Assembly: GCA_903871855.1 (NCBI GenBank)
Contig: CAIQIK010000042.1
Span: 62,001 to 126,000, forward strand
DNA length: 64,000 nucleotides
Direction: 5' to 3'
Source of the DNA: an uncultured Caldisericota bacterium
GTDB taxonomy: Bacteria > Caldisericota > Caldisericia > Cryosericales > Cryosericaceae
A program made the translations under genes and the position numbers. Position 1 is the first letter of the stretch. Every line of letters begins with the position of its first letter. Shown piece by piece: positions 1,119-62,482 of the stretch. Under the pieces are notes generated by a model. It was not told the DNA's origin and ran no database searches. It saw nothing but the letters and a program-made list of their open reading frames with translations.

Positions 1119-3935
1119 GTGAACCGACATCTTTGGTTGCGCTGCCTCGCATGTGCCGTGCTGGTCACCATGTTTGCATGTGCCGGTACAGTGCCTGCCA
1201 GGGCAGAACAAGTACTGTGCTCGGTGACACCTGCGCCCGTGACTGCCAGTACCCCGGCTGCATATACCGTACGCATCTCGACCAACCCATATGACCGCGT
1301 TGACCAGCTGCGCATCACGTTTCCGTTCGACACCGGGTTCACGATGGGGTCTTTTGCCCCATCGATGGTTGTCGTCAACGGCGTCCAGAGCCGTGGGGGT
1401 CAGATTCAGAAGCTGGCAACGACGAACCAGATCCAGATGGACATCCTGCTGTCGACACGGCTGTCTGCGGGTACTCCACTGACCATTGTCATCGCCCGTG
1501 ATGTGGGCATCCTGAACCCGCTGTCGCCGCGTTCGTGTTATCGGCTGATGGTCAGCTTCTTCTGCGACGGCAGAGAATTCGACGGAGTTGAGTCGGACCT
1601 CTATGCGATTACGCCATCGGCCATTGGGTCTGTCACTGCCGCTATCGATCCCGTCGTGGCGGGCGCCGCTGCCGACGTCGTCGTCAGCTTTCAAACTGGG
1701 TCCAACGGGCGACTGATGGCAGGCCAGGATAGCGTCAACATCTCTTTCCCGCTTGGCTTCAATGTTCCACAGTCGTTTGGTCTAGCCGACGTAACGCTCA
1801 ACGGTGTCTCCTGTGACGGCAGGTTCTTTCGCGACAACGCCAGTCCAAACACCGTCCTTGTGTACGTCCCGGTCGACATTCCGGCCCGCTCACTCGTTAT
1901 CGTTCGCATCCCTGCCAAGGCAGGCATCAAGAACCCGGCTGTCGCTGGTCCTGTCGTCCTCAGCGTCTACACAACTGCCGAAGTGACTCCTATCGACACA
2001 CCGGTCGTTGAGATACGTGGTCGGGAGGTGACCGGGCTGACAGTTCAGCTCACGACGCCAGTCGCCGGGTCGCCGACGGGGCTGCAGCTGCACTTCGGAC
2101 TGTCGGCCGTTGGTCGCCTGACGCAGGGCCAGCTTGTCCATGTCCGCCTTCCGGTTGGTTATGCGGCGCCGGCCCCGACGACCACTGTGCAGGTCACTGT
2201 CAATGGCACTACGGCAGCGGCAACCATTGCGGCTGGGGGCATAGATGTCGCTGTTCCTGCCTATCTGTCGGATGAATCCTCCGTAAACCTCGTATTGCCA
2301 GTCGAATTCGGTATCGTCAACCCCATGGCGCCAATGGGATATGCCTGGACGGTCTGGACTGACAGTGACACGGTGCCGATAGTGGCTATGGCACTGGTGC
2401 AGGCGTCGTCGGCGTCGGGAGCAACGCTTCTGACATCAACCGTCTCCATTGGGCGCAGTGCTTCGTGGACGGTGACCTTCACTCCAAGCTCCGCGGCCAC
2501 ATTCCCGGCAGCCGGAGAATCCATCATGATCACCTTTGATGGAGCGATCCTCGTGCCGGCGCGGCTGGGCGACGGCAGCGTGACAGTCAACGGTGTGCTG
2601 GCAGCTGCTGCAGCTCAGGGGGCGACTATCGTGGTGACTGTGCCGACCGGCGTTGTCCCGTCGGGGATCATCACGCTTGTGCTGAACGAGCAGGTGGGTA
2701 TCCGCACGCCGGCTGTACCTGGGCCTGCAAGGATACACATCGCGACGACCCGGGACAGCAACCCCATCGCTAGCTCCGCTGTTGAGTTCAGGTCACTGCC
2801 TGTCGCCATGATACTGGTAACGCCTGACGCGCCCAACGGTGTTGGCGGACGCTATGTCGCGACCAAACCCATGGTGCGGCTCGTGAATGAAGATTCCTCG
2901 CTGTACTACCGGATTGATGAGGGAGCTTACCAACTATATTCACCGGGAACATCGATAGCCATCGACGAGGGATCCCACACACTTACCGCCTATGCCGTAG
3001 CGCGCGATGGTACGCAGGGTGAACCGAGTAGCCGGTCCTTTGTGGTCGACTTGACCAAGCCAGTCGTCACCCTTACGGGAGCCACGGGGGATTTGTTTGT
3101 CCGCTCGACGTCGCTGACCATCACCGGCACTGTTTCGGAACTGGTGGACGTGCTGCAATTCAATGGTATCGCGGCCGTTGTTGCGGCGGATCTTACCTTC
3201 TCGGTTGCGCTTAACGTCTCGGACGGCCAGGCGCTCGCTTGCTTTGCACGCGACTTGGCAGGCAACACGGTGACGTTCGTACGGACGATACGGGTCGACA
3301 CGACTGCGCCTGCCATCACGCGACAGGGACCGTTCCCTGCCGAGAGCACGGTGCATGCCGACAGTATCTCTATCCGAGTGACGGTCAGCGAGCCTGCTTC
3401 GGTGAATGTCAACGGTATTCCCATGACCCAGACAGGTTCAGTCTGGGAGGCGATGGTGCCACTCTTCAAAGGCGAAAATGCCATCACGGTCACAGCAGTT
3501 GACAGAGCGGGGAATGAGGGTCGGCTGGCTTGGACGGTCACCCGCAACGACGTCCTCACCATACGGCTCGTAGTGGGACAGACGACGGCTATGGTAGGCG
3601 ATGAACAGCGCTTGCTGGATGCCCCGCCCATCATCGTGAACGGCGTGACATTCGTGCCCCTCCGGTTCATCGGCGAGGCCCTGGGAGCACAGGTGACGTG
3701 GAGTCCTGCTCTCCAGGTCGTATTCCTTGTCAGGGGCAGCTCACAGGTCCAGCTGACGGTCGGATCCAAGCTTGCCATCATCGACGGGAAGATCACTCAG
3801 CTGGCGGAGGCGCCGTTCATCCAGAACGGGCGCACGATGGTGCCCTTGCGGTTTATCAGCGAAGCATTTGGAGCCGACGTCACCTGGGATCAGGCGACGC
3901 AGGCAGTCACCGTGTCCCTTGCGGACGCAACGTAG
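1119..3935 (+). CDS. Secreted multi-Ig-like protein with C-terminal stalk domains
   Basis: The frame opens at 1098, but the GTG at 1119 is the better start: AAGGAG at 1108-1113 is well placed, and the product then begins with a clear signal peptide (MNRHLWLRC, a hydrophobic run, cleavage near ARA-EQ). The mature part of this 938-residue protein has several beta-rich repeats carrying the phrase I(R/K)NPxxPG or similar, then Ig-like domains, and ends with two copper amine oxidase N-terminal-like stalk domains, each with VPLRFI(G/S)EA(L/F)GA. It follows the preceding paralogue by 27 nt and precedes another by 11 nt, so the three are probably co-transcribed. The likely role is as an extracellular structural or adhesion protein; no catalytic motif is visible. 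Confidence 0.85.
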   Translation: MNRHLWLRCLACAVLVTMFACAGTVPARAEQVLCSVTPAPVTASTPAAYTVRISTNPYDRVDQLRITFPFDTGFTMGSFAPSMVVVNGVQSRGGQIQKLATTNQIQMDILLSTRLSAGTPLTIVIARDVGILNPLSPRSCYRLMVSFFCDGREFDGVESDLYAITPSAIGSVTAAIDPVVAGAAADVVVSFQTGSNGRLMAGQDSVNISFPLGFNVPQSFGLADVTLNGVSCDGRFFRDNASPNTVLVYVPVDIPARSLVIVRIPAKAGIKNPAVAGPVVLSVYTTAEVTPIDTPVVEIRGREVTGLTVQLTTPVAGSPTGLQLHFGLSAVGRLTQGQLVHVRLPVGYAAPAPTTTVQVTVNGTTAAATIAAGGIDVAVPAYLSDESSVNLVLPVEFGIVNPMAPMGYAWTVWTDSDTVPIVAMALVQASSASGATLLTSTVSIGRSASWTVTFTPSSAATFPAAGESIMITFDGAILVPARLGDGSVTVNGVLAAAAAQGATIVVTVPTGVVPSGIITLVLNEQVGIRTPAVPGPARIHIATTRDSNPIASSAVEFRSLPVAMILVTPDAPNGVGGRYVATKPMVRLVNEDSSLYYRIDEGAYQLYSPGTSIAIDEGSHTLTAYAVARDGTQGEPSSRSFVVDLTKPVVTLTGATGDLFVRSTSLTITGTVSELVDVLQFNGIAAVVAADLTFSVALNVSDGQALACFARDLAGNTVTFVRTIRVDTTAPAITRQGPFPAESTVHADSISIRVTVSEPASVNVNGIPMTQTGSVWEAMVPLFKGENAITVTAVDRAGNEGRLAWTVTRNDVLTIRLVVGQTTAMVGDEQRLLDAPPIIVNGVTFVPLRFIGEALGAQVTWSPALQVVFLVRGSSQVQLTVGSKLAIIDGKITQLAEAPFIQNGRTMVPLRFISEAFGADVTWDQATQAVTVSLADAT

Positions 3936-3946
3936 AAAGGACGGGA

Positions 3947-6043
3947 ATGATGATGCGGATAATCGATTGTTCATGGTTCAAGCGGCTCATCGGGGTTGTG
4001 GTTGTGTGTGTGTTGCTGGCTGGATATGGTGCTCCGAAGGCGCGTGCTGTCGTCAGCGCTGTCGAAGTGCAGGTCGTGCCCAACGTTGCAAAGACCAACG
4101 CGCGGTACACGGTGTCGTTCGTTACCGGTGAGGGTCTCGCAGCAGGTGATGCAGTCCTGCTGGAGTTCCCGCAGGGGACAACCCTGCCGTGCTCCCCCTG
4201 CAACCCGCTGGTCTATGCCGACGAAGTGACCGTCAACGACCTCCACCCAACACAGCCGGCTTTCGGCAATCCGAGCGCTTGTACGCTGAAGGTGTTTGTT
4301 CCCGAAGCGATCCCCGCTGGAGGCACCGTACAGATCATCATTAGCGCACTGGTGCCACGCGTGGGCAACCCCGGCACCGGTACATATCATGTTCGTGTGT
4401 CCACTGATCACGAACCGGCGGTGGACTCGGCACCATATACCATTGGGACGAGCCAGATCATGGCGCCCAGCGTCCATCTGGAATCCACCATTGCGAATGT
4501 AGGGTCGGGGTATATAGTTGTATTTGTCACCGGGGTGACTGGACAGCTTGTCCAAGGCAGCAGCACCATCACGATCACCTATGCGGCCGGTGGGTTCCCC
4601 GTGGCACCCGTCAACAGTGCGGTCACAGTGAATGGTTTGGTCCCGGAGCGCATCCTGACCAACCCGGTCAAGCACACGATCGAGATCCTGTCACCGGTTA
4701 CGGTAGATACGCGGTCTGCCGTGACGATTGCTATTGGTGCAGGCTATGGTTTGACGAACCCTGTCAAGGCGGGTAACTATGTGCTGTATGTCCATACGTC
4801 ATCCGAACCCGGGGACGTTGCGTCCGAGCCGTTTCAGATCAAGGACCTGCCCATGGTTTCCACAACCATCTATGTGGGTCCAGGCACACCGGACGGACAG
4901 AACGGATGGTATGTCAGCGAGCCCATGGTGACGCTTGCTGCTGCCTCGAACGTCGACGGGCGCCTGGAGCTGCGCTATGGTATCGACGCCGACCCGACCA
5001 TCTTGTATACTGTGCCCTTTCAGATTCCATCGGGCGTGCACACGCTGAAGTATCGCGCCCGCAATGTGGACGCGGGGATCGACGAGGAATCGGTCAAGAC
5101 CGCCGAGTTCCGCGTTGCCACAACGGGCCCAGTCCTTGCTATCGACGGTGCTGAACGGCGCCTCGTGACTTCTTCCTCGTTCACGCTGGCGGGGTCGGTC
5201 ACGGCTACGTCGGCTCCGGTCGTGAGCGTCGACGTGCTGGGCAAGGAGACACATATCATCGCGGGAGGGACTTTTTCTGAGCTGTTGACTCTCTTTGAAG
5301 GGGCCAATGAACTCCGTGTTACTGCCACGGATGAGAGCGGCCGCACGACCTCTGCAGTGGTGAACGTCACCGTCGACACCGTACCGCCTAAGCTGACCGT
5401 GTCTGCGCCGGTCAACTGGCAGGAAATCCATGCCGAAAAGGTCATGGTACGGGGGACGGTCGAGGCAGGCGCCGTGCTGACAGTCAATGGGACATCGATT
5501 TCCAACCTCATGCCGGATGGATCGTTTGCCCATGAGGTGGCACTCGCCATAGGAGCCAACACCATCACTGTGACCGCACAGGATGCTGCCGGTAACACAC
5601 GCCGCGTGGCTGTTCTCGTGACCCGTGTCCCTGCCAATGCGACGACGATCGTCCTGACCATCGGCAACAAATATATGACCGTCAATGGCACGAAGAGGGA
5701 GATCGACGCGGGACGCGGCACGACGCCGGTCATTCAGAACGGCCGCACGCTGGTCCCGATCGCTGCTATCATCGAGGCGTTGGGTGGCAAGGTGGTCTGG
5801 GCAGCCTCCGCGCGGACCGTAACCATCACGCTGGGCAACACCGAGCTCGTCCTCGCCATTGGTGGACCGACCGCATACGTGAATGGCAAGGCTGTACCCA
5901 TCGATACGGACCCCAAGGTCACGCCGATCATCATCAATGGCCGTACCATGCTTCCGTTTCGCTTCATCGCCGAGCAACTGGGTGGCACCGTGGAGTGGAA
6001 CGCGGCGACGAAGTCGGTCGTCCTGCACTTTAGCGTGTCCTAG
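3947..6043 (+). CDS. Secreted Ig-like / stalk-domain protein, third paralogue
   Basis: The open frame extends back into the upstream gene, but a run of three ATG codons at 3947-3955 follows GAAAGGA at 3934-3940 and starts a signal peptide (MMMRIIDCSW, hydrophobic core, cleavage near ARA-VV). That gives 698 residues. The order matches its neighbours: N-terminal repeats of the ITNPxKxG type, an Ig-like section (VNGTSISNLMPDGSF, DAAGN), then two stalk domains with LVPIAAIIEALGG and MLPFRFIAEQLGG. The protein is presumably exported and retained at the surface. Which of the three ATGs is used cannot be decided. Confidence 0.84.
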   Translation: MMMRIIDCSWFKRLIGVVVVCVLLAGYGAPKARAVVSAVEVQVVPNVAKTNARYTVSFVTGEGLAAGDAVLLEFPQGTTLPCSPCNPLVYADEVTVNDLHPTQPAFGNPSACTLKVFVPEAIPAGGTVQIIISALVPRVGNPGTGTYHVRVSTDHEPAVDSAPYTIGTSQIMAPSVHLESTIANVGSGYIVVFVTGVTGQLVQGSSTITITYAAGGFPVAPVNSAVTVNGLVPERILTNPVKHTIEILSPVTVDTRSAVTIAIGAGYGLTNPVKAGNYVLYVHTSSEPGDVASEPFQIKDLPMVSTTIYVGPGTPDGQNGWYVSEPMVTLAAASNVDGRLELRYGIDADPTILYTVPFQIPSGVHTLKYRARNVDAGIDEESVKTAEFRVATTGPVLAIDGAERRLVTSSSFTLAGSVTATSAPVVSVDVLGKETHIIAGGTFSELLTLFEGANELRVTATDESGRTTSAVVNVTVDTVPPKLTVSAPVNWQEIHAEKVMVRGTVEAGAVLTVNGTSISNLMPDGSFAHEVALAIGANTITVTAQDAAGNTRRVAVLVTRVPANATTIVLTIGNKYMTVNGTKREIDAGRGTTPVIQNGRTLVPIAAIIEALGGKVVWAASARTVTITLGNTELVLAIGGPTAYVNGKAVPIDTDPKVTPIIINGRTMLPFRFIAEQLGGTVEWNAATKSVVLHFSVS

Positions 6044-6647: not shown

Positions 6648-7601
6648 ATGATGGCGACGAAAACGTCAGTCGAGAAGAAGAGCAAGCGCACGTGTTACTC
6701 GGTCGTTATCGTTCCACAGTATGAAGGTCGCGCGCATCAGTTCAAGGTCTCCCGTTTCGTCATCTACAGTGTCATCACCGCAATTGTTCTTTTTGTCTCG
6801 AGCTTCGCCGTCGTCCTGACGCAGAACGTTCGCCTCAGGAACACAGTCGCCCAGTACACCGGGATGGGTCTCGATCAGGTCGTGCGCCTTCAGTCTGCAC
6901 AACTTGATGCCGCTAACGAGACCATCAGCAACAATAACACGGAACTAGCTGCACTCAGAAAATACGTTGCTTATCTGGGAACCCTTGATGCTACAGTCCG
7001 CAAAACGCTCGGCGTCGGCGGGAGCAGCGTCTCCCTGGCGTCCATCCTCAAATCGTCGGCTACACCAACCCTTTCTGTCAGCCGCGGTTTGGCCGCGGGC
7101 GCGACACAGCTGTCGACGTCAACGGCTGTCGTGCAGCAAGAAGCTCAAGCTCGTGAGAAGAACCTTATCATCTTGCAGGACGCGGCTTCCAAATACAACA
7201 CCATGCTCGCGGAGACTCCTTCGCTCTGGCCCTTGTACGGACTCATCACCTCTGACTATGGCTGGCGCTCCGACCCGTTTGGCGGCAGCGGTAGCGAGTT
7301 CCACGACGGCGTCGATATTGCGGCTCCGTACGGAACGGCAATCAGGGCAACGGCTGAAGGCAAGGTAGAGCAGTCCGGGTGGAACGGGAGTTATGGCATC
7401 TCCGTGACGCTGTACCATCGTGACGGCATCGAGACCCTGTACGGCCACATGTGCCGGACGGCCGTGTCCGCGGGCCAGACTGTCAAGAAGGGCCAGGTCA
7501 TCGGCTACGAGGGATCGACCGGCCGTGCAACTGGACCTCACGTCCACTACGAGGTCATGATTCATGGCAGTTCAGTTAACCCGATGACGTATCTTGACTA
7601 G
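6648..7601 (+). CDS. M23 family murein endopeptidase, membrane anchored
   Basis: This 317-residue protein has a basic N-terminus, one transmembrane helix (about residues 30-52), a coiled-coil region (about 55-180) and a C-terminal LytM/M23 metallopeptidase domain. The Zn ligands are visible as EFHDGVDIAAPYG (HxxxD) and GPHVHYEV (HxH), so the enzyme should be active against peptide cross-links of peptidoglycan on the outer face of the membrane. The start is one of two adjacent ATGs (6648 or 6651), behind GGGGAAGCGAGG. A bactofilin gene follows after 15 nt. M23-bactofilin pairs are a well-known shape-control module in which the cytoskeletal polymer positions the hydrolase. Confidence 0.93.
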   Translation: MMATKTSVEKKSKRTCYSVVIVPQYEGRAHQFKVSRFVIYSVITAIVLFVSSFAVVLTQNVRLRNTVAQYTGMGLDQVVRLQSAQLDAANETISNNNTELAALRKYVAYLGTLDATVRKTLGVGGSSVSLASILKSSATPTLSVSRGLAAGATQLSTSTAVVQQEAQAREKNLIILQDAASKYNTMLAETPSLWPLYGLITSDYGWRSDPFGGSGSEFHDGVDIAAPYGTAIRATAEGKVEQSGWNGSYGISVTLYHRDGIETLYGHMCRTAVSAGQTVKKGQVIGYEGSTGRATGPHVHYEVMIHGSSVNPMTYLD

Positions 7602-8193: not shown

Positions 8194-8310
8194 CCCCCGA
8201 GCCCTTTTGTCCAAGGCGAGGGGTGCTTCCCACGAGCATGTTGGTCCAATGGGAGTGGCGCTCTGCCCCCCGAGCACTTTTTTCGCATGCGAGGGGTGCT
8301 TTCGGCGAAG
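8194..8310 (+). repeat. 36-bp palindromic unit cluster A (three units)
   Basis: Three units lie head to tail. Unit 1 (about 8195-8230) pairs CCCC with GGGG and GCC with GGC. Unit 2 (about 8230-8265) pairs CCAC with GTGG and CAT with ATG. Unit 3 (8268-8303) pairs CCCC with GGGG and GCA with TGC. In all three the two stem parts are separated by GA opposite GA. Each hairpin is followed by a 6-7-nt tail of the TGCTTC type. The block fills most of the gap between the bactofilin and ftsB-like genes; no gene is seen in it. Confidence 0.85.
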
Positions 8311-10814: not shown

Positions 10815-10849
10815 TGTAACATTCTCGGGACGGTTCCAAAGTGTAACAT
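10815..10849 (-). repeat. H2 repeat (uninterrupted copy)
   Basis: Read on the minus strand this is TGTTACACTTTGGAACC followed directly by GTCCCGAGAATGTTACA. Two other copies of this repeat (12936-13010 and 41104-41246) are interrupted by 36-bp-type units exactly at the GGAACC/GTCCC junction; this copy is uninterrupted. Confidence 0.8.
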
Positions 10850-12786: not shown

Positions 12787-12917
12787 CCCCGAGCCCTTTT
12801 GTCCAAGGCCCCCGAGCACTTTCTTCCAATGCGAGGGGCGTTTCTGAGGGGTGCTTCCCACGAGCATGTTGGTGCAATGGGAGTGGCGCTCTGCCGCGTC
12901 TGCGGGAATCCAGTCCT
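12787..12917 (+). repeat. 36-bp unit cluster B1 with nested insertion
   Basis: A first unit of the GCC/GGC type begins at 12787 and breaks after GGC at 12809. A complete 36-bp unit (GCA/TGC type, 12810-12845) follows, and then the missing 3' part of the first unit (GAGGGGTGCTTC) resumes at 12846. A CCAC/GTGG unit (about 12858-12893) comes next, then the right half of an H1-like repeat ending GCGGGAATCCAG. No gene is seen between 12691 and 13099; the whole gap is promoter and repeats. Confidence 0.85.
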
Positions 12918-12935: not shown

Positions 12936-13010
12936 GAGAATGTTACAGTTTGGAACCCCCCGAGTATGTTAGTTCAATATGAGGGGTGCTTCCGTCCCGA
13001 GAATGTTACA
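12936..13010 (+). repeat. H2 repeat interrupted by one 36-bp unit
   Basis: GAGAATGTTACAGTTTGGAACC (in two pieces: 12936-12947 and its continuation to 12957), then a complete unit 12958-12993 with GTAT/ATAT inner stem, then GTCCCGAGAATGTTACA (12994-13010). Removing exactly 36 bp restores the H2 sequence found at 25129-25167, with no duplicated target bases. Confidence 0.85.
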
Positions 13011-25128: not shown

Positions 25129-25167
25129 GAGAATGTTACACTTTGGAACCGTCCCGAGAATATTACA
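25129..25167 (+). repeat. H2 repeat (uninterrupted copy)
   Basis: GAGAATGTTACACTTTGGAACC (ending at 25150), then directly GTCCCGAGAATATTACA. It is the empty-site counterpart of the interrupted copies at 12936-13010 and 41104-41246. Two direct copies of GAGAAT(G/A)TTACA flank the centre. Confidence 0.82.
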
Positions 25168-25182: not shown

Positions 25183-25293
25183 GTCATTCCCCCCGAGCAC
25201 TTTTTTCCCATGCCCCCGAGTGTGTTAGTCCAATACGAGGGGTGCTCTTGAGGGGCGCTTCTGAGGGGTGCTTCTCCGCGAGTGCGGGAATCC
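25183..25293 (+). repeat. 36-bp unit cluster C inside a split H1 repeat
   Basis: GTCATTC (25183-25189) and CCGCGAGTGCGGGAATCCA (25276-25294) are the halves of an H1 repeat. Between them lie the 5' part of a GCA/TGC unit, a complete inserted unit (GTGT/ATAC stem, tail TGCTCTT), the 3' part of the first unit (GAGGGGCGCTTCT), and one orphan 3' part (GAGGGGTGCTTCT) whose left half is missing. The 24999-25378 gap otherwise holds an H2 repeat and promoters; no gene is seen. Confidence 0.82.
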
Positions 25294-26514: not shown

Positions 26515-29500
26515 CTAGCTGAAGGAAACGAGGTCGTTCCCGGATTCGGCCGATATCTCTGGAGTCTTGAGGCTTGCTGTCTCGACGATACTGACGTCCT
26601 TGTAATTCTTCGAGATGTTCTTGTACGTCGTGAGATAGTTCTCATACCCCATCTTCTTGGCTACCAGCAGGGCTTCGCCGACAAATCCCGGCGCCTCGAG
26701 GCGCATCGCCAGGTCTCGGGCAATTGACAGCTCGATAGGAGACAGAGCAACGACAGTGAGCTTGATCACATGCCGTATCTCCTCTGGCACATTCTGCAGG
26801 TCCTTGGCCGAGACAGCCAGTTTGGAGATACGGTTGCGGTACCCGCCGCGGAAGAGCTGCGCCAGAGCGCCGGCATCGGTGACGACGCCGTCACGCAGCA
26901 GCGTGTCAAGTTCGATAGCGCCCGAGAAGATAGAGGGCTGTAGAGCCGGTCTGCTTGCTGGAACCGGTACGACTGGTGGTACAGAGGCAGTGACGCCTGC
27001 TGGTGCGCTGGCTGCAGCAACTGTTTGCTGGAACGACTCCTCATCGGCCAACAGTCGCGACAGAAGGTCCGCGCTGGGTGCTGCCCCCGGATTGCTTTCT
27101 GGTGGTTTCGCCGCTGGGCGTTCGCGGTCTGATGTGAGAGGTTCGACTTCGACAGGGACCACCTCGGGTGTTGTTACGAGTTCTGAGGTTTCCTGAGTAG
27201 CCGGCGCCATCTCTTTGGCAAGTGAAACTTCCTCATGCGTTGGAGCACCCGTCTCCTGAGTCGAAACCGGTTCTTCCATGGAAGCTGCCTGTGGTGCAAC
27301 AGGTGCCTCTGGAACAGAGATTTTTTCGGCCTGAAGTGCCTCCTGGGTTCCCAGGAATTCCTCGGTAGGCATGGGGCGCTCGAGAGGCAAGGCAGTTTCA
27401 GCACCGCTGCTTTCTAGTTCAATGGGCTGGGCTGGAGCCTCCTGCCCGATAGGTCTCAGTTCCGGTTCGGGGAAAGGTTTGAGGAGCATTTCCGAGGGAA
27501 GTTCCTGGGCAGGAGGGCCTTCCTGTGGAGGCATGAGGAGAGCTTCCGAAGGAACCTCAGCCGGCACGGCCGGCGCAATCATAGCGGCAGCGTCCGCAGC
27601 TCCATGAGGCACTGCAGCGGGCGCCGTCTCTGTGCCGGCGAAGAAGCCAAGTGGCTCCAGGGAAATCTCCGAGACCTGCGGTGACTCGAGCCGGGCATGA
27701 GATGATTCCTCGGCGATCGCTGGTTGAGCAGCGGGTTCCTGCACACGCTGTGCTTCCTGCTTCTCATGGGTTCGTGTCAGTCGATCCAGTGTCATTGTGG
27801 GCGATGGTATTGGGCCTTGTTCCACAAGACCGAACTCTATGGTGTTCTCTTTCTGTCCTGCCGTCCTGGGTGTCACCTTAGGCAGGCGCTTGCCTACGTT
27901 GCGGCGGGGACGCAGAGCGAGTAGGAGGATGATGAGGGCAAGAACGACAACAACCCAAAACATCCATACAGCTACCAGCTCGGGCGTCACCGAGAGGCCG
28001 GACACCATGCGTCCCAGAACTGGTACGACCAACGCAGCCAGGGGCAAAAACAACCGGACGGCGAGATCATTGATCGCCTGTGTCGCGGTCTGGAGCACCT
28101 TCAATGCCTTACCCGAGACGAAGAAATCACGGATGCCCACAGTGAGAGAAGCGACAAACGCCCCCGTCGCGCGAGTTGTCTTCTGAATCCATACCCATGC
28201 CGTCTGCCACCGAGCAGCAATGAAAGTGCCCGTCGCGTGAGTTGCCTTCTGAATCCATACCCATGCTGTCTGCCACCGGGAAGCAATGAAGGCACCCGTC
28301 GCGCGAGTTGCCTTCTGAATCCATGCCGACACTGCCTGCCAGGGTCCCGACGACGGTGACTCCACAGGAGTGGATGTTTGCGTCGTTTCGTCTGTATTGG
28401 TCGAGGCTACGGGACTGGAAGACGAGACCTCTGCGACACTTGCGTTGACCGAGGAGTCGGCCAGCGGTAGCGCTACAGCCAATCCCTCGCGAGCCTCTTC
28501 TCCGAGATCGAAGAGCTGAACCGGTTTTGTCGAGGTGAGCCGAATGGGAACCCCGCTGGCGTCGATACGTAGAATCTTCGCTTGAGCTGTATTCAGGGTG
28601 AAGCGCTGAGATGAAGCTCCTGTGGATAGCGTGACATCCGCTCCGTCCTGAACGCCAACAACAGCAAGGCGGCGAAAGTGACCCTGGGAGAAACCGCTGA
28701 AGAGCTTGCCACTGGTGACGACGAAGTTTAACCCAGAGCCGGTGAGGGCTGTCGATGGATATTGTTCAAGGCCGAAGTTGCCCGAGTTTCCGTCGGTGGT
28801 CAGCGTGTACGGTCCATTACTCTCGACCACGATCGGCTTCCACTCGGTCTTGCCCGCAACATACGCGTTTTGTGCAATCGTGGTTCTTGTCGTTGAAGAA
28901 CCGAGCTCTGGAAGCAAAGACGTCTGTGTGGTTCCTGCGAACGATGTTGTGACCGTGGTGGCAGGACGCCAGGACGTTATGGTCGTCTGTCCGAACGACG
29001 GACCCGCAAACCATGTCCCGACAGGATACTGTACACATGATATGTTGTCTTCCTCGACGCCCGAGGTGACACAAACGGGAGACGAGCTCCTGAGGCGATA
29101 TATTCCGGGTTCCAGCCCGTCAACGAACCTGACAGATGCAGGAGAAAGCGCGATGGTCCGCGTGCTTCCCTTGCTTGTGAGCGAAACCGAGGTAGACGAA
29201 GGCGCCGCAAGCCAGAGCTCGCCAAAGGTCCGCACCAGTAGGTCGGTACCCACTGTGCCGTAAACGTCATCGTTGGACTGCCTGAGGGCTTGCTGTTCCG
29301 AATCGGGAGCCATTGTGACAAGCCAGACACTGACGGGCTTTGCTGCATCGATGCGCACGACCTGCGGGGACTTGGCGGTGTAGGACATCGATTCATCGGG
29401 GCCGAGTGTGCGCGACAGAAGCAGTGTCCCATCGGCCTGCACGAGTCTGACCAAATTGCCGGCCTCGAATGAAGCCACCTCGAGCACCTTCTCTACGTAG

Positions 29501-29898
29501 ACCAGATAGGACGTCCCCATAAACAGTGGCAACTGGGTCACACCCGTCACCGCAGAACCCGTGCCGTTTACGAGCTTGAAGGTCTGGGCGGAATTGGCAG
29601 GTAAGTCGGCCAGAAAGTGGAGAACCAGTGCACTTGTGCCCGTCTGCTGGATAGAACATGCAATCGGAGCACCAGAAGGATCTGCCAGGTGCCAGTCGGC
29701 AGCTGTGGTCGATTCTGCGGCAAGAGCAACGACGACCGGGTAGGCTGTACGTGTGAGACCGGCATTCTCTGTGACGATGATATTGCGTGTCACCGAGTCG
29801 GACGAATCCGCTCGAACATGCACCTTGGGCATAAAGCCCATACAGGTGCAGCAGAGTACCAGAAGTCCTGTGAGTACGCTTCTCGCCCGTTTTCTCAT
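26515..29898 (-). CDS. Large membrane-anchored surface protein with 22-residue repeats
   Basis: I do not recognise this 1127-residue protein as a whole. It has a signal peptide (MRKRARSVLTGLLVLCC, cleavage near VRA-DS), an extracellular beta-rich region of about 480 residues, three tandem 22-residue repeats starting WIQKATRATGAF (about residues 530-595), a hydrophobic stretch and a transmembrane helix near residue 660 (VAVWMFWVVVVLALIILLLAL). After a basic stop-transfer (RPRRN) comes a long Glu/Pro/Ala-rich cytoplasmic linker (about 690-1000). A conserved-looking C-terminal domain of about 120 residues (IELDTLLRDGVVTDAGALAQ, GFVGEALLVAKKMGYENYL) vaguely resembles a PIN fold. A transmembrane sensor or surface-to-cytoplasm linker is possible but unproven. 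It stands alone, with a remnant of an H2-like sequence in its leader. Confidence 0.7.
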   Translation of the reverse strand: MRKRARSVLTGLLVLCCTCMGFMPKVHVRADSSDSVTRNIIVTENAGLTRTAYPVVVALAAESTTAADWHLADPSGAPIACSIQQTGTSALVLHFLADLPANSAQTFKLVNGTGSAVTGVTQLPLFMGTSYLVYVEKVLEVASFEAGNLVRLVQADGTLLLSRTLGPDESMSYTAKSPQVVRIDAAKPVSVWLVTMAPDSEQQALRQSNDDVYGTVGTDLLVRTFGELWLAAPSSTSVSLTSKGSTRTIALSPASVRFVDGLEPGIYRLRSSSPVCVTSGVEEDNISCVQYPVGTWFAGPSFGQTTITSWRPATTVTTSFAGTTQTSLLPELGSSTTRTTIAQNAYVAGKTEWKPIVVESNGPYTLTTDGNSGNFGLEQYPSTALTGSGLNFVVTSGKLFSGFSQGHFRRLAVVGVQDGADVTLSTGASSQRFTLNTAQAKILRIDASGVPIRLTSTKPVQLFDLGEEAREGLAVALPLADSSVNASVAEVSSSSPVASTNTDETTQTSTPVESPSSGPWQAVSAWIQKATRATGAFIASRWQTAWVWIQKATHATGTFIAARWQTAWVWIQKTTRATGAFVASLTVGIRDFFVSGKALKVLQTATQAINDLAVRLFLPLAALVVPVLGRMVSGLSVTPELVAVWMFWVVVVLALIILLLALRPRRNVGKRLPKVTPRTAGQKENTIEFGLVEQGPIPSPTMTLDRLTRTHEKQEAQRVQEPAAQPAIAEESSHARLESPQVSEISLEPLGFFAGTETAPAAVPHGAADAAAMIAPAVPAEVPSEALLMPPQEGPPAQELPSEMLLKPFPEPELRPIGQEAPAQPIELESSGAETALPLERPMPTEEFLGTQEALQAEKISVPEAPVAPQAASMEEPVSTQETGAPTHEEVSLAKEMAPATQETSELVTTPEVVPVEVEPLTSDRERPAAKPPESNPGAAPSADLLSRLLADEESFQQTVAAASAPAGVTASVPPVVPVPASRPALQPSIFSGAIELDTLLRDGVVTDAGALAQLFRGGYRNRISKLAVSAKDLQNVPEEIRHVIKLTVVALSPIELSIARDLAMRLEAPGFVGEALLVAKKMGYENYLTTYKNISKNYKDVSIVETASLKTPEISAESGNDLVSFS
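28140..28335 (-). repeat. Three tandem 66-bp coding repeats
   Basis: CCCGTCGCG(C/T)GAGTTG recurs at 28163, 28229 and 28295, spaced exactly 66 bp. The first two periods are nearly identical at the DNA level; the third diverges after about 40 bp. They encode the WIQKATRATGAF repeats, so the expansion is recent. Confidence 0.9.
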
Positions 29899-40970: not shown

Positions 40971-41076
40971 CGCCTTCCCCTCTGTCATTCCCGCCCACAC
41001 GGTTGTCCTATTCTGTCATTCCCCCGAGCACTTTTTTCCCATGCGAGGGGCGCTTCTCCGCGCAGGCGGGAATCCA
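40971..41076 (+). repeat. H1 repeat copies, one interrupted by a 36-bp unit
   Basis: Two partial H1 left halves (GTCATTCCCGCC at about 40971 and 40984) precede a full H1 repeat split by a unit: GTCATTC (41015-41021), a complete 36-bp unit (41022-41057, GCA/TGC inner stem, tail CGCTTCT), then CCGCGCAGGCGGGAATCCA (41058-41076). Removing the 36 bp gives the sequence type seen intact at 8093-8118. Confidence 0.88.
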
Positions 41077-41103: not shown

Positions 41104-41246
41104 GTGTAACAGAATTGGAACCCCCCGAGTATGTTAGTTCAATACCCCCGAACATATTTTCTCAATGCCCCCGAGTATGTTAGTCCAATACGAGGGGTGC
41201 TTCTGAGGGGCGTACTGAGGGGTGCTTCTGTCCCGAGAGCGTTACG
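41104..41246 (+). repeat. H2 repeat interrupted by three nested 36-bp units
   Basis: H2 left half ends GGAACC at 41122; H2 right half GTCCCGAGAGCGTTACG begins at 41230. Between them are three left halves in a row (starting 41123, 41146 and 41169) and then three right halves (GAGGGG plus tails TGCTTCT, CGTACT, TGCTTCT). The total is 107 bp, that is 3 x 36 minus one base in the middle unit. The gap 40874-41376 holds only promoters and these repeats. Confidence 0.88.
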
Positions 41247-58951: not shown

Positions 58952-59179
58952 TCATTTCCCCGAGCCCTTTTGTCCCTCGCATCCTTTTGTCCAAGATGCG
59001 AGGTGTTCTTCAAGGCCCCCCGAGTATGTTAGTCCAATACGAGGGGTGCTCTTGAGGGGCGTTTCTGAGGGGTGCTTCCCACGAGCCCAAAGATGTTTTT
59101 GTATCCGAGGGTGTTCTGCATGTTGGTGCAATGGGAGTGGCGCTCTGCCGCGCAGGCGGGAATCCACTTCTTGTGTCCA
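58952..59179 (+). repeat. 36-bp unit cluster E, multiply nested
   Basis: A GCC/GGC unit starts about 58958. At its loop (after GTC, 58974) a different 36-bp unit is inserted whose 9-bp stem CCTCGCATC/GATGCGAGG is fully paired. The host unit resumes with CAAGGC, then takes a second insertion (GTAT/ATAC type, from about 59018). Two right halves follow, then a CCAC/GTGG unit itself interrupted by a shortened unit (about 59087-59118), then CCGCGCAGGCGGGAATCCA of an H1 repeat. The 58850-59324 gap contains no gene. Confidence 0.85.
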
Positions 59180-60356: not shown

Positions 60357-61082
60357 ATGCCGGCGTTCGAAGCGGGTCGGTCGCTCAGGCTGGGCGAACA
60401 TGTCATGCTTGGCGGCACGCCTGCCGCACACCACATCGCAGATGTCCTCCGCGTTCGTCACGGCGAACAGATTATCCTGTTTCATGCAGGAATATTGTAT
60501 AACGCGGTTGTTGAAAACGCTTCCAGGTCCGGCCTTGCCGTCTCGGTGGAGAGCATCCGTCAGTTGCCCTTTTCCGCGCGCCCGGTCACCCTTCTGCAGG
60601 CAATCATTCGACCCGCACTGCTGGGCGACGTTGTCCACGTCTGTACTCCGCTGGGAGTGCATCGGTTCGTCCTGTATGCCGCCGAGCGCAGCCAACCATG
60701 GAATGTCGCCGGGCGGCTCGAGCGCCTGAGTCAGGTGGCCCTGTCCGCGGCCGAGCAGGCCGAAACGGGTGACGTCCCAATGATCGAGCTGGCACCAGGG
60801 CTTCAGAGTGCATTGTCATGCGTGGGCCCCGTGGGCAGCCTGATTATGATGTCTCCTCGCGCGCCCTCGACCATGATGGGACTTGCGCGCGACGGGGCAC
60901 TCGCTCTGGATGATTCCGTCGCGGTCGCAGTAGGCCCTGAGGGTGGGTTCTCGGGGCCAGAGGAAGCGCTGCTCATCGAACGAGGCGCCTTGCCCGTTCG
61001 CCTCAGCACGGGCATCCTCAGGAGCGAACTGGCCGGGTTCGCCGCCATATTGATGGTGCGGGAATTGCAGGCGAAACCATGA
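60357..61082 (+). CDS. rsmE: 16S rRNA m3U1498 methyltransferase
   Basis: The 241-residue SPOUT methyltransferase has a PUA-like N-terminus (HHIADVLRVRHGEQIILF) and the knot motifs VAVGPEGGFSGPEEALL and LSTGILRSELAGFAAI (usually LRTETA). It methylates U1498 of 16S rRNA with SAM. It starts 3 nt after hrcA and overlaps mtaB by 4 nt. Confidence 0.95.
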   Translation: MPAFEAGRSLRLGEHVMLGGTPAAHHIADVLRVRHGEQIILFHAGILYNAVVENASRSGLAVSVESIRQLPFSARPVTLLQAIIRPALLGDVVHVCTPLGVHRFVLYAAERSQPWNVAGRLERLSQVALSAAEQAETGDVPMIELAPGLQSALSCVGPVGSLIMMSPRAPSTMMGLARDGALALDDSVAVAVGPEGGFSGPEEALLIERGALPVRLSTGILRSELAGFAAILMVRELQAKP

Positions 61083-62482
61083 AGGTGTTCATCTACACAC
61101 TTGGCTGCAAGGTCAACGAGGTCGACTCCGAGCTGTATGCACAGGAAATGCGTTTGCTGGGTGCCGAAACGACCACAGCGCTGACTGAAGCCGACGCCGT
61201 CATCGTGAACTCGTGCAGTGTCACGAACCGGGCCCAGGCTCAGAGCCTGCAGTTTGCGCGTCGTGCCCTGCGCGAACGGCCAGGGGCGCCCGTGTATCTC
61301 ACCGGATGCGGAGCAACACTGCTGAACCTGACGCGTACGGAAGCTCCTGCCGGTGTCGCCGTCGTTGCCATGCGTGATCGAGTGGAAGTGGCGAGGCTTG
61401 TCGTCCACTCAGGTGATGCAGCACAGGTCACAGCGCGATGGGTCGATGGGCGCATCCAGAGAGCGGGGCCCCGCAACCGTGTGGACGTGCGCGTGCAGGA
61501 GGGGTGCGATAACATGTGCACCTATTGCGTCGTGCCGTTTGTGCGTGGCTCGCGCCTTGAATCCAAGCCCGCCCTTGTGGCGGTGGACGAAGTCATGGGG
61601 CTTGCGGCGGCAGGTGTCAAGGAAGTCGTGCTGACTGGGACAGAGATAGGCAAGTACGGAGAGGCACCACTCAGAAGCACCCCTCGTATTCGAAGAATAT
61701 ACTCGGGAAGTACGCCCTTCGTATTGGACCAACATGCTCAGGGGGCATTGGAGGAACATGCTCGTGAGGAAGCGCCGAACAGACTACCTGCCCTGCTGGA
61801 CAGCATGCTGGGGGCGCTTGAGTCTGCAGGACTTCCGACGCGTGTTCGCATCAGCTCGCTCAATCCGGACGCGATCACCGAAGCGCTGGTCGGTCAGTTT
61901 GCAAACCATGTCGCGCTGTGCCCGCAGCTACATCTTCCCCTGCAGAGCGGGAGTGACGCAGTCCTGAGGCGTATGCGTCGGCCATATACATCGAAGGACC
62001 TACTCGACAGTGTGCAACGCCTGCGGGTCGTCGACCCGGCGTTCACCCTGACGACGGACGTCATCGTCGGGTACCCCGGTGAGACCGAGGAGGACCTGCA
62101 GGCTACCTTGGACGTAGTCCGGCTTGCGGCGTTCGCCAAGGTCCACGCATTCCCCTATTCAGCCCGTCCGTTCACCCCTGCGACACGTGAAGAGAACCAG
62201 GTCCCGCCGGGAGTCGCAAAGGAACGACTCCACCGCGTGCTCGAGCTCGCGGAGCAAACGGGTGTGGCATTTGCTCGCCGGTTTATCGGTCGGGACGTAA
62301 CGATCGTATCCGAGAAGTCCTTTCCCGGAGAGGTTGAAGGGTACTCAGAGTACTATCTCTGGACAGAGGGACGGATGCGTGGAAACAAAGTGCTCGAACG
62401 TGACAGCTTTGTCGTCGTTCACGTTGAGGGTTGTCACTGGGATGGTGACCGGGTCGTCCTTTCCGGGGGCGTAGCTACATGA
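61079..62482 (+). CDS. mtaB: tRNA t6A37 methylthiotransferase with in-frame repeat insertion
   Basis: The radical SAM methylthiotransferase of the MiaB/MtaB family has an N-terminal 4Fe-4S domain (TLGCKVNEVDSE, NSCSVTNRAQ, TGCGA), the radical SAM motif CDNMCTYC (C143, C147, C150) with VVPFVRG, and a C-terminal TRAM domain. MtaB makes ms2t6A at A37 of ANN-decoding tRNAs. It is 467 residues; residues 195-230 are encoded by 108 bp of nested palindromic repeat (61660-61767). Removing them joins TGTEIGKYG to EAPNRLPALLDSM and leaves 431 residues, the usual length. The site is a surface-like loop before the second half of the barrel. Confidence 0.93.
   Translation: MKVFIYTLGCKVNEVDSELYAQEMRLLGAETTTALTEADAVIVNSCSVTNRAQAQSLQFARRALRERPGAPVYLTGCGATLLNLTRTEAPAGVAVVAMRDRVEVARLVVHSGDAAQVTARWVDGRIQRAGPRNRVDVRVQEGCDNMCTYCVVPFVRGSRLESKPALVAVDEVMGLAAAGVKEVVLTGTEIGKYGEAPLRSTPRIRRIYSGSTPFVLDQHAQGALEEHAREEAPNRLPALLDSMLGALESAGLPTRVRISSLNPDAITEALVGQFANHVALCPQLHLPLQSGSDAVLRRMRRPYTSKDLLDSVQRLRVVDPAFTLTTDVIVGYPGETEEDLQATLDVVRLAAFAKVHAFPYSARPFTPATREENQVPPGVAKERLHRVLELAEQTGVAFARRFIGRDVTIVSEKSFPGEVEGYSEYYLWTEGRMRGNKVLERDSFVVVHVEGCHWDGDRVVLSGGVAT
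61660..61767 (-). repeat. Three nested 36-bp units inside mtaB
   Basis: In minus orientation. The outer unit is split: 61660-61672 (tail plus GTGG and GA) and 61744-61767 (TCAC, GA, GCAT, loop, ATGC). Inside are a GTAT/ATAC unit of 35 bp (61673-61707) and a CCCT/AGGG unit of 36 bp (61708-61743). Total length is exactly 108 bp, keeping the mtaB frame; a one-base gain (61744) balances a one-base loss in the inner unit. Confidence 0.88.

Follow-up and report, generated by a model that had tools for sequence, protein, structure and literature searches.

The locus at positions 8194-8310 of the window (the whole 64,000-nucleotide stretch analysed here, from an uncultured Caldisericota bacterium) raises the question of why a hairpin of only 29 nt should be kept as a folded strand. 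The initial annotation of this DNA had proposed selection on the folded single strand. It reported neither of the two properties that give a reason for keeping such a strand, namely the mobility of the repeated units that contain the hairpin and their nesting in each other. We give an about even chance to the view that the fold is kept because the unit is an ultra-small, non-autonomous mobile hairpin.

Region 8194-8310 consists of three copies of one 36-nt unit, all in the same orientation. Each unit is made of a 29-nt hairpin (outer stem of 4 bp, GA/GA, inner stem of 3-4 bp and 9-nt loop) followed by a 7-nt tail, e.g., TGCTTCT. The units align without gaps and their loop ends in a TCCAA-like stretch. 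The first unit (8195-8230, plus strand), which belongs to type A and has a GCCC/AGGC inner stem, abuts the second (8230-8265, plus strand), which belongs to type D (CCAC GA GCAT ... ATGG GA GTGG, then the tail CGCTCTG); since the tail of the first unit is cut from 7 to 6 nt at the abutment, the two units share one base. The third unit (8268-8303, plus strand), another type A with a GCA/TGC inner stem, starts two bases further on; the second arm of a CGTC-type REP (GGCGAAGGCGGGAATC) comes after it. Two other subfamilies were distinguished: type B, also of 36 nt (CCTCGCATCC...), and type C, of 33 nt.

Other copies are scattered over the window. On the plus strand, a composite at 12787-12893 includes a type A host, interrupted at its position 23 by another type A unit (12810-12845), and then a type D unit (12858-12893). 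A unit at 12958-12993 interrupts a different dispersed repeat, with GGAACC on one side and GTCCCGAG on the other; this repeat is known from locus L031, where it flanks a RAYT gene. At 25191-25275 (plus strand), a type A host located at a CGTC-type REP contains a guest at its position 23 (25214-25249) and carries one extra orphan tail; at 41022-41057 (plus strand), a single unit lies between GTCATTC and CCGCGCAGGCGGGAATCCA of such a REP. Three units are held one inside another at 41123-41230 (plus strand; 108 nt, outer limits set by hand; innermost 41169-41204, middle 41146-41217), again between GGAACC and GTCCCGAG. The composite at 58958-59148 (plus strand, outer end set by hand) combines two hosts: one of type A, whose loop holds a type B unit (58975-59010) and which also carries a type A guest (59018-59053), and then one of type D with a type C guest. 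Lastly, 108 nt at 61660-61767, on the minus strand, correspond to three nested units within an mtaB-like gene (61079-62482), antisense to this gene and in frame (36 aa). This dispersion exceeds chance: when at most one mismatch is allowed, the 11-mer GAGGGGTGCTT is found 15 times in the window, compared to an average of 1.08 times in 100 shuffled versions; in the genome it occurs exactly 33 times, and its reversed pattern twice. The candidate list held 39 units, from which four chance-like ones and duplicate sequences were dropped and to which three rows were added by eye before alignment. The window also carries a 66-bp tandem repeat (2.5 copies, 28163-28324) inside a minus-strand ORF of 1127 aa (26515-29898), where it possibly encodes a 22-aa protein repeat.

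The stems and the GTCCAA-like loop end given by the initial annotation are present in the sequence as it described them, and the stem covariation that it reported is real. A position matrix that takes no account of pairing, itself built from 28 units, yielded 224 distinct units. When all their column pairs are ranked by mutual information, stem pairs take the first three places (8-22, 0.66; 9-21, 0.64; 3-27, 0.46), the next pair reaching 0.19; pair 10-20 does not covary. An earlier covariation score calculated from 28 units, a set partly found by pairing, was 0.310 against a shuffle mean of 0.152, and none of 500 shuffles scored as high. The covariation in the 224 units supports the proposal made for the locus: the folded strand of the unit has been under selection.

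The GA/GA mismatch does not stand out to the same extent. It was announced as invariant, and it is indeed kept in most units (G5 in 218, A6 in 211, G24 in 203 and A25 in 209 of the 224; jointly, G5.A25 in 204 and A6.G24 in 191), but type B has Watson-Crick GC/GC pairs in its place and type C has AA opposite GA. The GA positions had also been expected to be less variable than the loop. The conservation of their columns, 91-97%, is matched by that of several loop columns (columns 12, 16, 18 and 20, with 220, 204, 207 and 223 of the 224), and GA is therefore not singled out. Recognition by a protein, as proposed in the initial annotation, stays hypothetical, and one subfamily has Watson-Crick pairs where GA would be expected. 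The folding energy of single sequences is unexceptional (z from -1.07 to -1.85 as RNA, from -0.15 to -0.97 as DNA). Selection does not seem to act on each copy either: stem-pair changes in 164 nearest-neighbour unit comparisons comprise 49 cases in which the pair is broken or absent, 35 single changes that keep it and 5 double compensatory ones. The many broken pairs indicate that many single copies are decaying, so that the family as a whole is selected and not the individual sites, as would be the case for a mobile element.

The family is confined to one genus. The host genome, a Candidatus Cryosericum (Caldisericota) of 1.84 Mb, has 82 covariance-model matches at E <= 0.1, i.e., around 80 copies, and 13 of the 14 other genomes of the genus have matches at E <= 0.01, against none of 39 genomes from the rest of the phylum at E <= 1e-4. 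A scan with the exact pattern over one genome per species, which possibly left out the window's own record, found 69 stretches, all of them in records of Cryosericum or "Caldiserica bacterium". No exact match to the pattern was found in viral contigs, which led to rejection of carriage by phages. A literature search, thin on subscription papers, found no account of these repeats in Cryosericum or Caldiserica.

Nesting is frequent and nearly always involves a few fixed positions. In the retrieved loci (part of the host genome and the surroundings of the matches in its relatives, rather than whole genomes, a scope that also applies to the 224 units), 91 of 291 distinct unit contexts sit within another unit. 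Nested units were detected by a script that removes complete units and searches the sequence again, its unit scoring including a pairing bonus. The guest is found at position 23 of the host in 47 cases, at position 24 in 2, at position 17 in 12 and at position 7 in 6, the 24 remaining cases (position 1 or 35) being abutments. Position 23, which lies between the inner 3' arm and the GAGGGG of the host, is represented by 47 distinct host-guest pairs and 43 distinct host sequences. The guests at position 17, in the loop, are nearly all of type B, and those at position 7 are always 33-nt units of type C. In the single-guest scan, 54 guests have the same strand as their host and none the opposite one. 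Nesting reaches a depth of three units, as at 41123-41230.

Units also split other dispersed repeats. CGTC-type REP palindromes, a family described in PMC3733652 as far as its excerpts go, are interrupted between GTCATTC and CCGCGnnnGCGGGAATCCA. Among 72 units followed by the second arm of a REP, 58 are preceded by the arm with the GTC tag, none by the tail arm and 14 by neither pattern. In the same way, a second dispersed repeat is split between GGAACC and GTCCCG by eight units, and it is this repeat that flanks the RAYT gene of L031. No target duplication was found either at this site or at position 23 of the host, between AATGC and GAGGGG. A C precedes 158 of the 164 units that are not nested and have a base upstream, which is partly an effect of alignment because units begin with CCCC. 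Copies of the second repeat with CGAGAATGTTACA ends occur in the window at 12996-13010, 10815-10829 and 25153-25167, and the repeat with these ends also forms the terminal inverted repeats of the RAYT gene (L031 and relatives). The unit (CCCGAGTATGTTA) resembles the RAYT-flanking repeat (CCCGAGAATGTTA), a likeness seen by eye that could be due to chance.

The genes of the genus provide empty, single and nested states of the same sites. According to Pfam, unit-bearing genes comprise the MtaB-like radical SAM gene of the window and genes that encode a T2SSE/PilT-like ATPase, a T2SSF/PilC-like protein, the ATPase domain of a histidine kinase and an EamA transporter (MtaB, PilT and PilC being names given in this analysis). 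The linker of mtaB contains no unit in six genomes (G004, G006, G007, G010, G011 and G012), one unit (+12 aa) in G001, G008 and G013, and three (+36 aa) in G000 and G002; 13 loci were submitted and 11 analysed, G003 and G014 having given no frame. A 4-nt CTTC is present on both sides of the first unit, so a short duplication is possible there. The mtaB tree pairs G001 (one unit) with G006 (empty) at 82/81; its branches are mostly unsupported and it gives no ordering of the states with zero, one and three units. For pilT (8 loci submitted, 7 reported, G000 being without the motif searched for), no unit is found in G006, G007, G012 and G013, one in G001 and G009, and two in G008. The start of a lipoprotein-like gene is empty in G004, carries one unit in G010 and two nested units in G006. 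Units within open genes keep the frame. With lengths of 36 and 33 nt they do so however deeply they are nested, and among the 224 units five of the six reading frames are open in 175-213 units and the sixth in 148.

Dispersed copies, precise insertion at fixed sites and in one orientation, nesting, presence or absence in orthologues and stem covariation make these units a mobile element, whose insertion is precise and free of target duplication at unambiguous sites. The explanation that we favour, to which we accord roughly half of our confidence, is that this ultra-small non-autonomous element is active as a folded strand and depends for its movement on a strand-specific HUH (Y1/RAYT) transposase supplied in trans. 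The units would be mobilized by an enzyme able to cut and join DNA in single-stranded form, the most likely one being a HUH tyrosine (Y1) transposase of the RAYT kind. After recognising the hairpin with its GA/GA internal loop, this putative enzyme would cut in two places, behind a C (often TTC) at the 5' foot and 7 nt beyond the 3' side of the hairpin; it would then paste the strand into the corresponding one of a second hairpin or of a TTC-like site. A HUH enzyme acting in trans is favoured because insertion is directional, free of duplication at unambiguous sites and dependent on the folded strand.

Candidate enzymes are widespread: Y1_Tnp is found in 13 of the 15 genomes of the genus, and one Y1 of the host genome scores above the cut-off of the NCBI model of REP-associated tyrosine transposases. 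G003 has units and no Y1 match, this genome being 73% complete. None of the Y1 genes at 27 loci uses the unit as its own flanking end; three confident unit matches lie nearby, two of which belong to one syntenic region whose orthologue in G004 has no unit. Many Y1 genes carry unrelated terminal inverted repeats. An autonomous parent, in the form of a long insertion between the two halves of a unit, was rejected: there is no convincing case among 17 split or orphan host starts of the retrieved loci, six of which have a gap of 22-36 nt holding unit-like guests, six no partner, and five gaps of 65-2253 nt that look like chance pairing of unrelated tails. Unit orientation agrees with the sign of the local GC skew for 20 of 31 matches on four contigs; the matches are clustered, and no clear or significant replication-strand bias is seen. 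A RAYT-like ORF of about 310-320 aa is syntenic in three species (loci L179, L181 and L183, from G004, G006 and G010); its HUH motif reads HYS (or SYS) and the site expected to hold its catalytic tyrosine RHVVLQP, compared to RYVVLNP in L031. Judging from these residues, it is possibly a domesticated, inactive RAYT.

Another reading, which is unlikely, is that the unit's own nucleic acid picks the insertion point, GA/GA being kept as a guide and not as a protein site. In this view, every guest subfamily has a point of entry of its own (23 for A, 17 for B and 7 for C), without any change of strand. The conserved GAG of the internal loop, which is part of GA/GA, would pair with the TTC-like cleavage motif of the target and of the 7-nt tail.

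An RNA intermediate, i.e., a transcribed hairpin joined into another RNA and copied back to DNA, is rather improbable. Movement of this kind has reportedly been suggested for the cyanobacterial SDRs. It is also suspected for the GC clusters of yeast mitochondria, according to the excerpted account of PMC4478555. The fold kept on one strand and the strand-specific insertion into hairpins would agree with it. However, the polymorphic units of mtaB, pilT and the lipoprotein-like gene are antisense to the gene, which is unexpected for insertion into mRNA (those of pilC and of the EamA-type gene are sense). Furthermore, a reverse transcriptase (RVT_1) is found in only one of the 15 genomes of the genus and in none of the other 14. 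Its long frame (L264, G000:C40, around 3933-4487) has a second half that is Cas1-like by eye and adjoins a Cas6-like ORF; it resembles an RT-Cas1 fusion and is probably an adaptation gene.

A site-specific double-strand recombinase, such as an IS110/Piv-like enzyme, is improbable as well. IS110/Piv-like enzymes target REPs elsewhere, and fixed insertion points, one orientation, lack of clear duplication and REP targets would all suit such an enzyme. However, IS110-family genes occur in 5 of the 15 genomes and were not found in unit-rich genomes, e.g., G001 and G013, and a recombinase leaves the stem covariation unexplained. On these counts (1/15 and 5/15 genomes), both the reverse transcriptase and IS110 were rejected as genus-wide movers.

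It is quite doubtful that the units serve the host as structural elements, in RNA or DNA form (terminators or protein sites), and were spread by copying of larger blocks and not by transposition of 36-mers. Whole composites do recur: 177-nt blocks A[B,A']-D[C] have the same architecture at several loci, such copies being non-independent, and some nested sets may thus have moved together. In L139, positions 7153-7491 hold tandem copies of a longer block composed of a unit and REP arms, which indicates that composites are also duplicated as blocks. However, block copying does not fit the exact 36-nt presence or absence in mtaB, pilT and the lipoprotein-like gene, nor the 43 distinct hosts split at position 23. 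As for a host function, the sole Rfam match of the window at gathering scores is a tRNA, with no family for the unit, and the tail is not a T run; on these grounds, and given folding energies near those of shuffles, a local regulatory RNA or terminator was rejected. A classical MITE moved by a DDE transposase is very improbable: the unit is small, non-autonomous and dispersed, but it lacks long terminal inverted repeats beyond the hairpin, keeps to one orientation and leaves its self and TIR targets without duplication.

The units thus provide a natural record of a mobile element of about 36 nt, near the lower size limit of transposition and among the smallest mobile elements observed. A single locus can preserve as many as three successive insertions, and orthologous genes show the empty, single and nested states. 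As an element that is safe for the frame, it adds modules of 12 residues to conserved proteins (MtaB-like, PilT-like, histidine kinase and PilC-like). The question of what moves orphan bacterial hairpins, such as SDRs and CGTC REPs, becomes testable here: there is a small number of RAYTs to consider as candidates, the boundaries of the unit are exact, its targets are known and empty sites exist.

Several known elements share some of these features. The palindromic elements of Rickettsia, of 105-146 bp, are found in frame inside conserved protein genes (PMC2229807, in its excerpts). The units are like them by their in-frame insertion in genes and unlike them, as far as that account goes, by their size of 33-36 nt and their nesting. 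The GC clusters of yeast mitochondria are GC-rich and mobile, merge and shuffle by an unknown mechanism, and one that was studied measures 42 nt (PMC4478555, as excerpted). These clusters are organellar and, in the excerpted description, associated with AG or ACT direct repeats, whereas the units have no such repeats at unambiguous sites. REPs and REPINs are palindromic repeats of 20-40 bp, present in many copies and associated with RAYT transposases (PMC3116915; PMC3733652), their hallmark being a GTAG or CGTC tag at the hairpin foot (PMC3733652), in the excerpted parts of both sources. Unlike REPs so described, the unit has no GTAG or CGTC tag and is not beside RAYT genes, and the CGTC REPs are its target instead. 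Like them, it is a palindromic repeat present in many copies, and RAYTs exist in the genus and in the host genome. In IS200/IS605 elements, the hairpin is recognised as a single strand, insertion occurs without target duplication next to a fixed flank, and orientation follows the lagging strand. The unit is comparable by the lack of target duplication at the self and TIR targets, the mtaB site being ambiguous, but it has no transposase gene (TnpA) and one hairpin instead of two terminal ones.

The closest known kind would be the nested SDRs of Nostoc and its relatives. These repeats, reportedly described by Elhai et al. in 2008, are said to be 21-27 nt long, to share a hairpin with compensatory changes, to include nested copies and to be confined to a clade, their mover being unknown. 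The Cryosericum units resemble SDRs so described, being tiny dispersed hairpins with compensatory changes, with copies nested in copies and a distribution limited to one clade. They would differ from them by their size of 33-36 nt, their presence in Caldisericota, the tie between guest type and position, and entry in frame into genes, shown by orthologues. The kind is thus already known; as far as the literature was searched, the novelty lies in the family and its phylum, in the tie of each guest type to an insertion position, in the restriction to one strand and in the gene states, i.e., empty, single and nested in-frame insertions in conserved genes.
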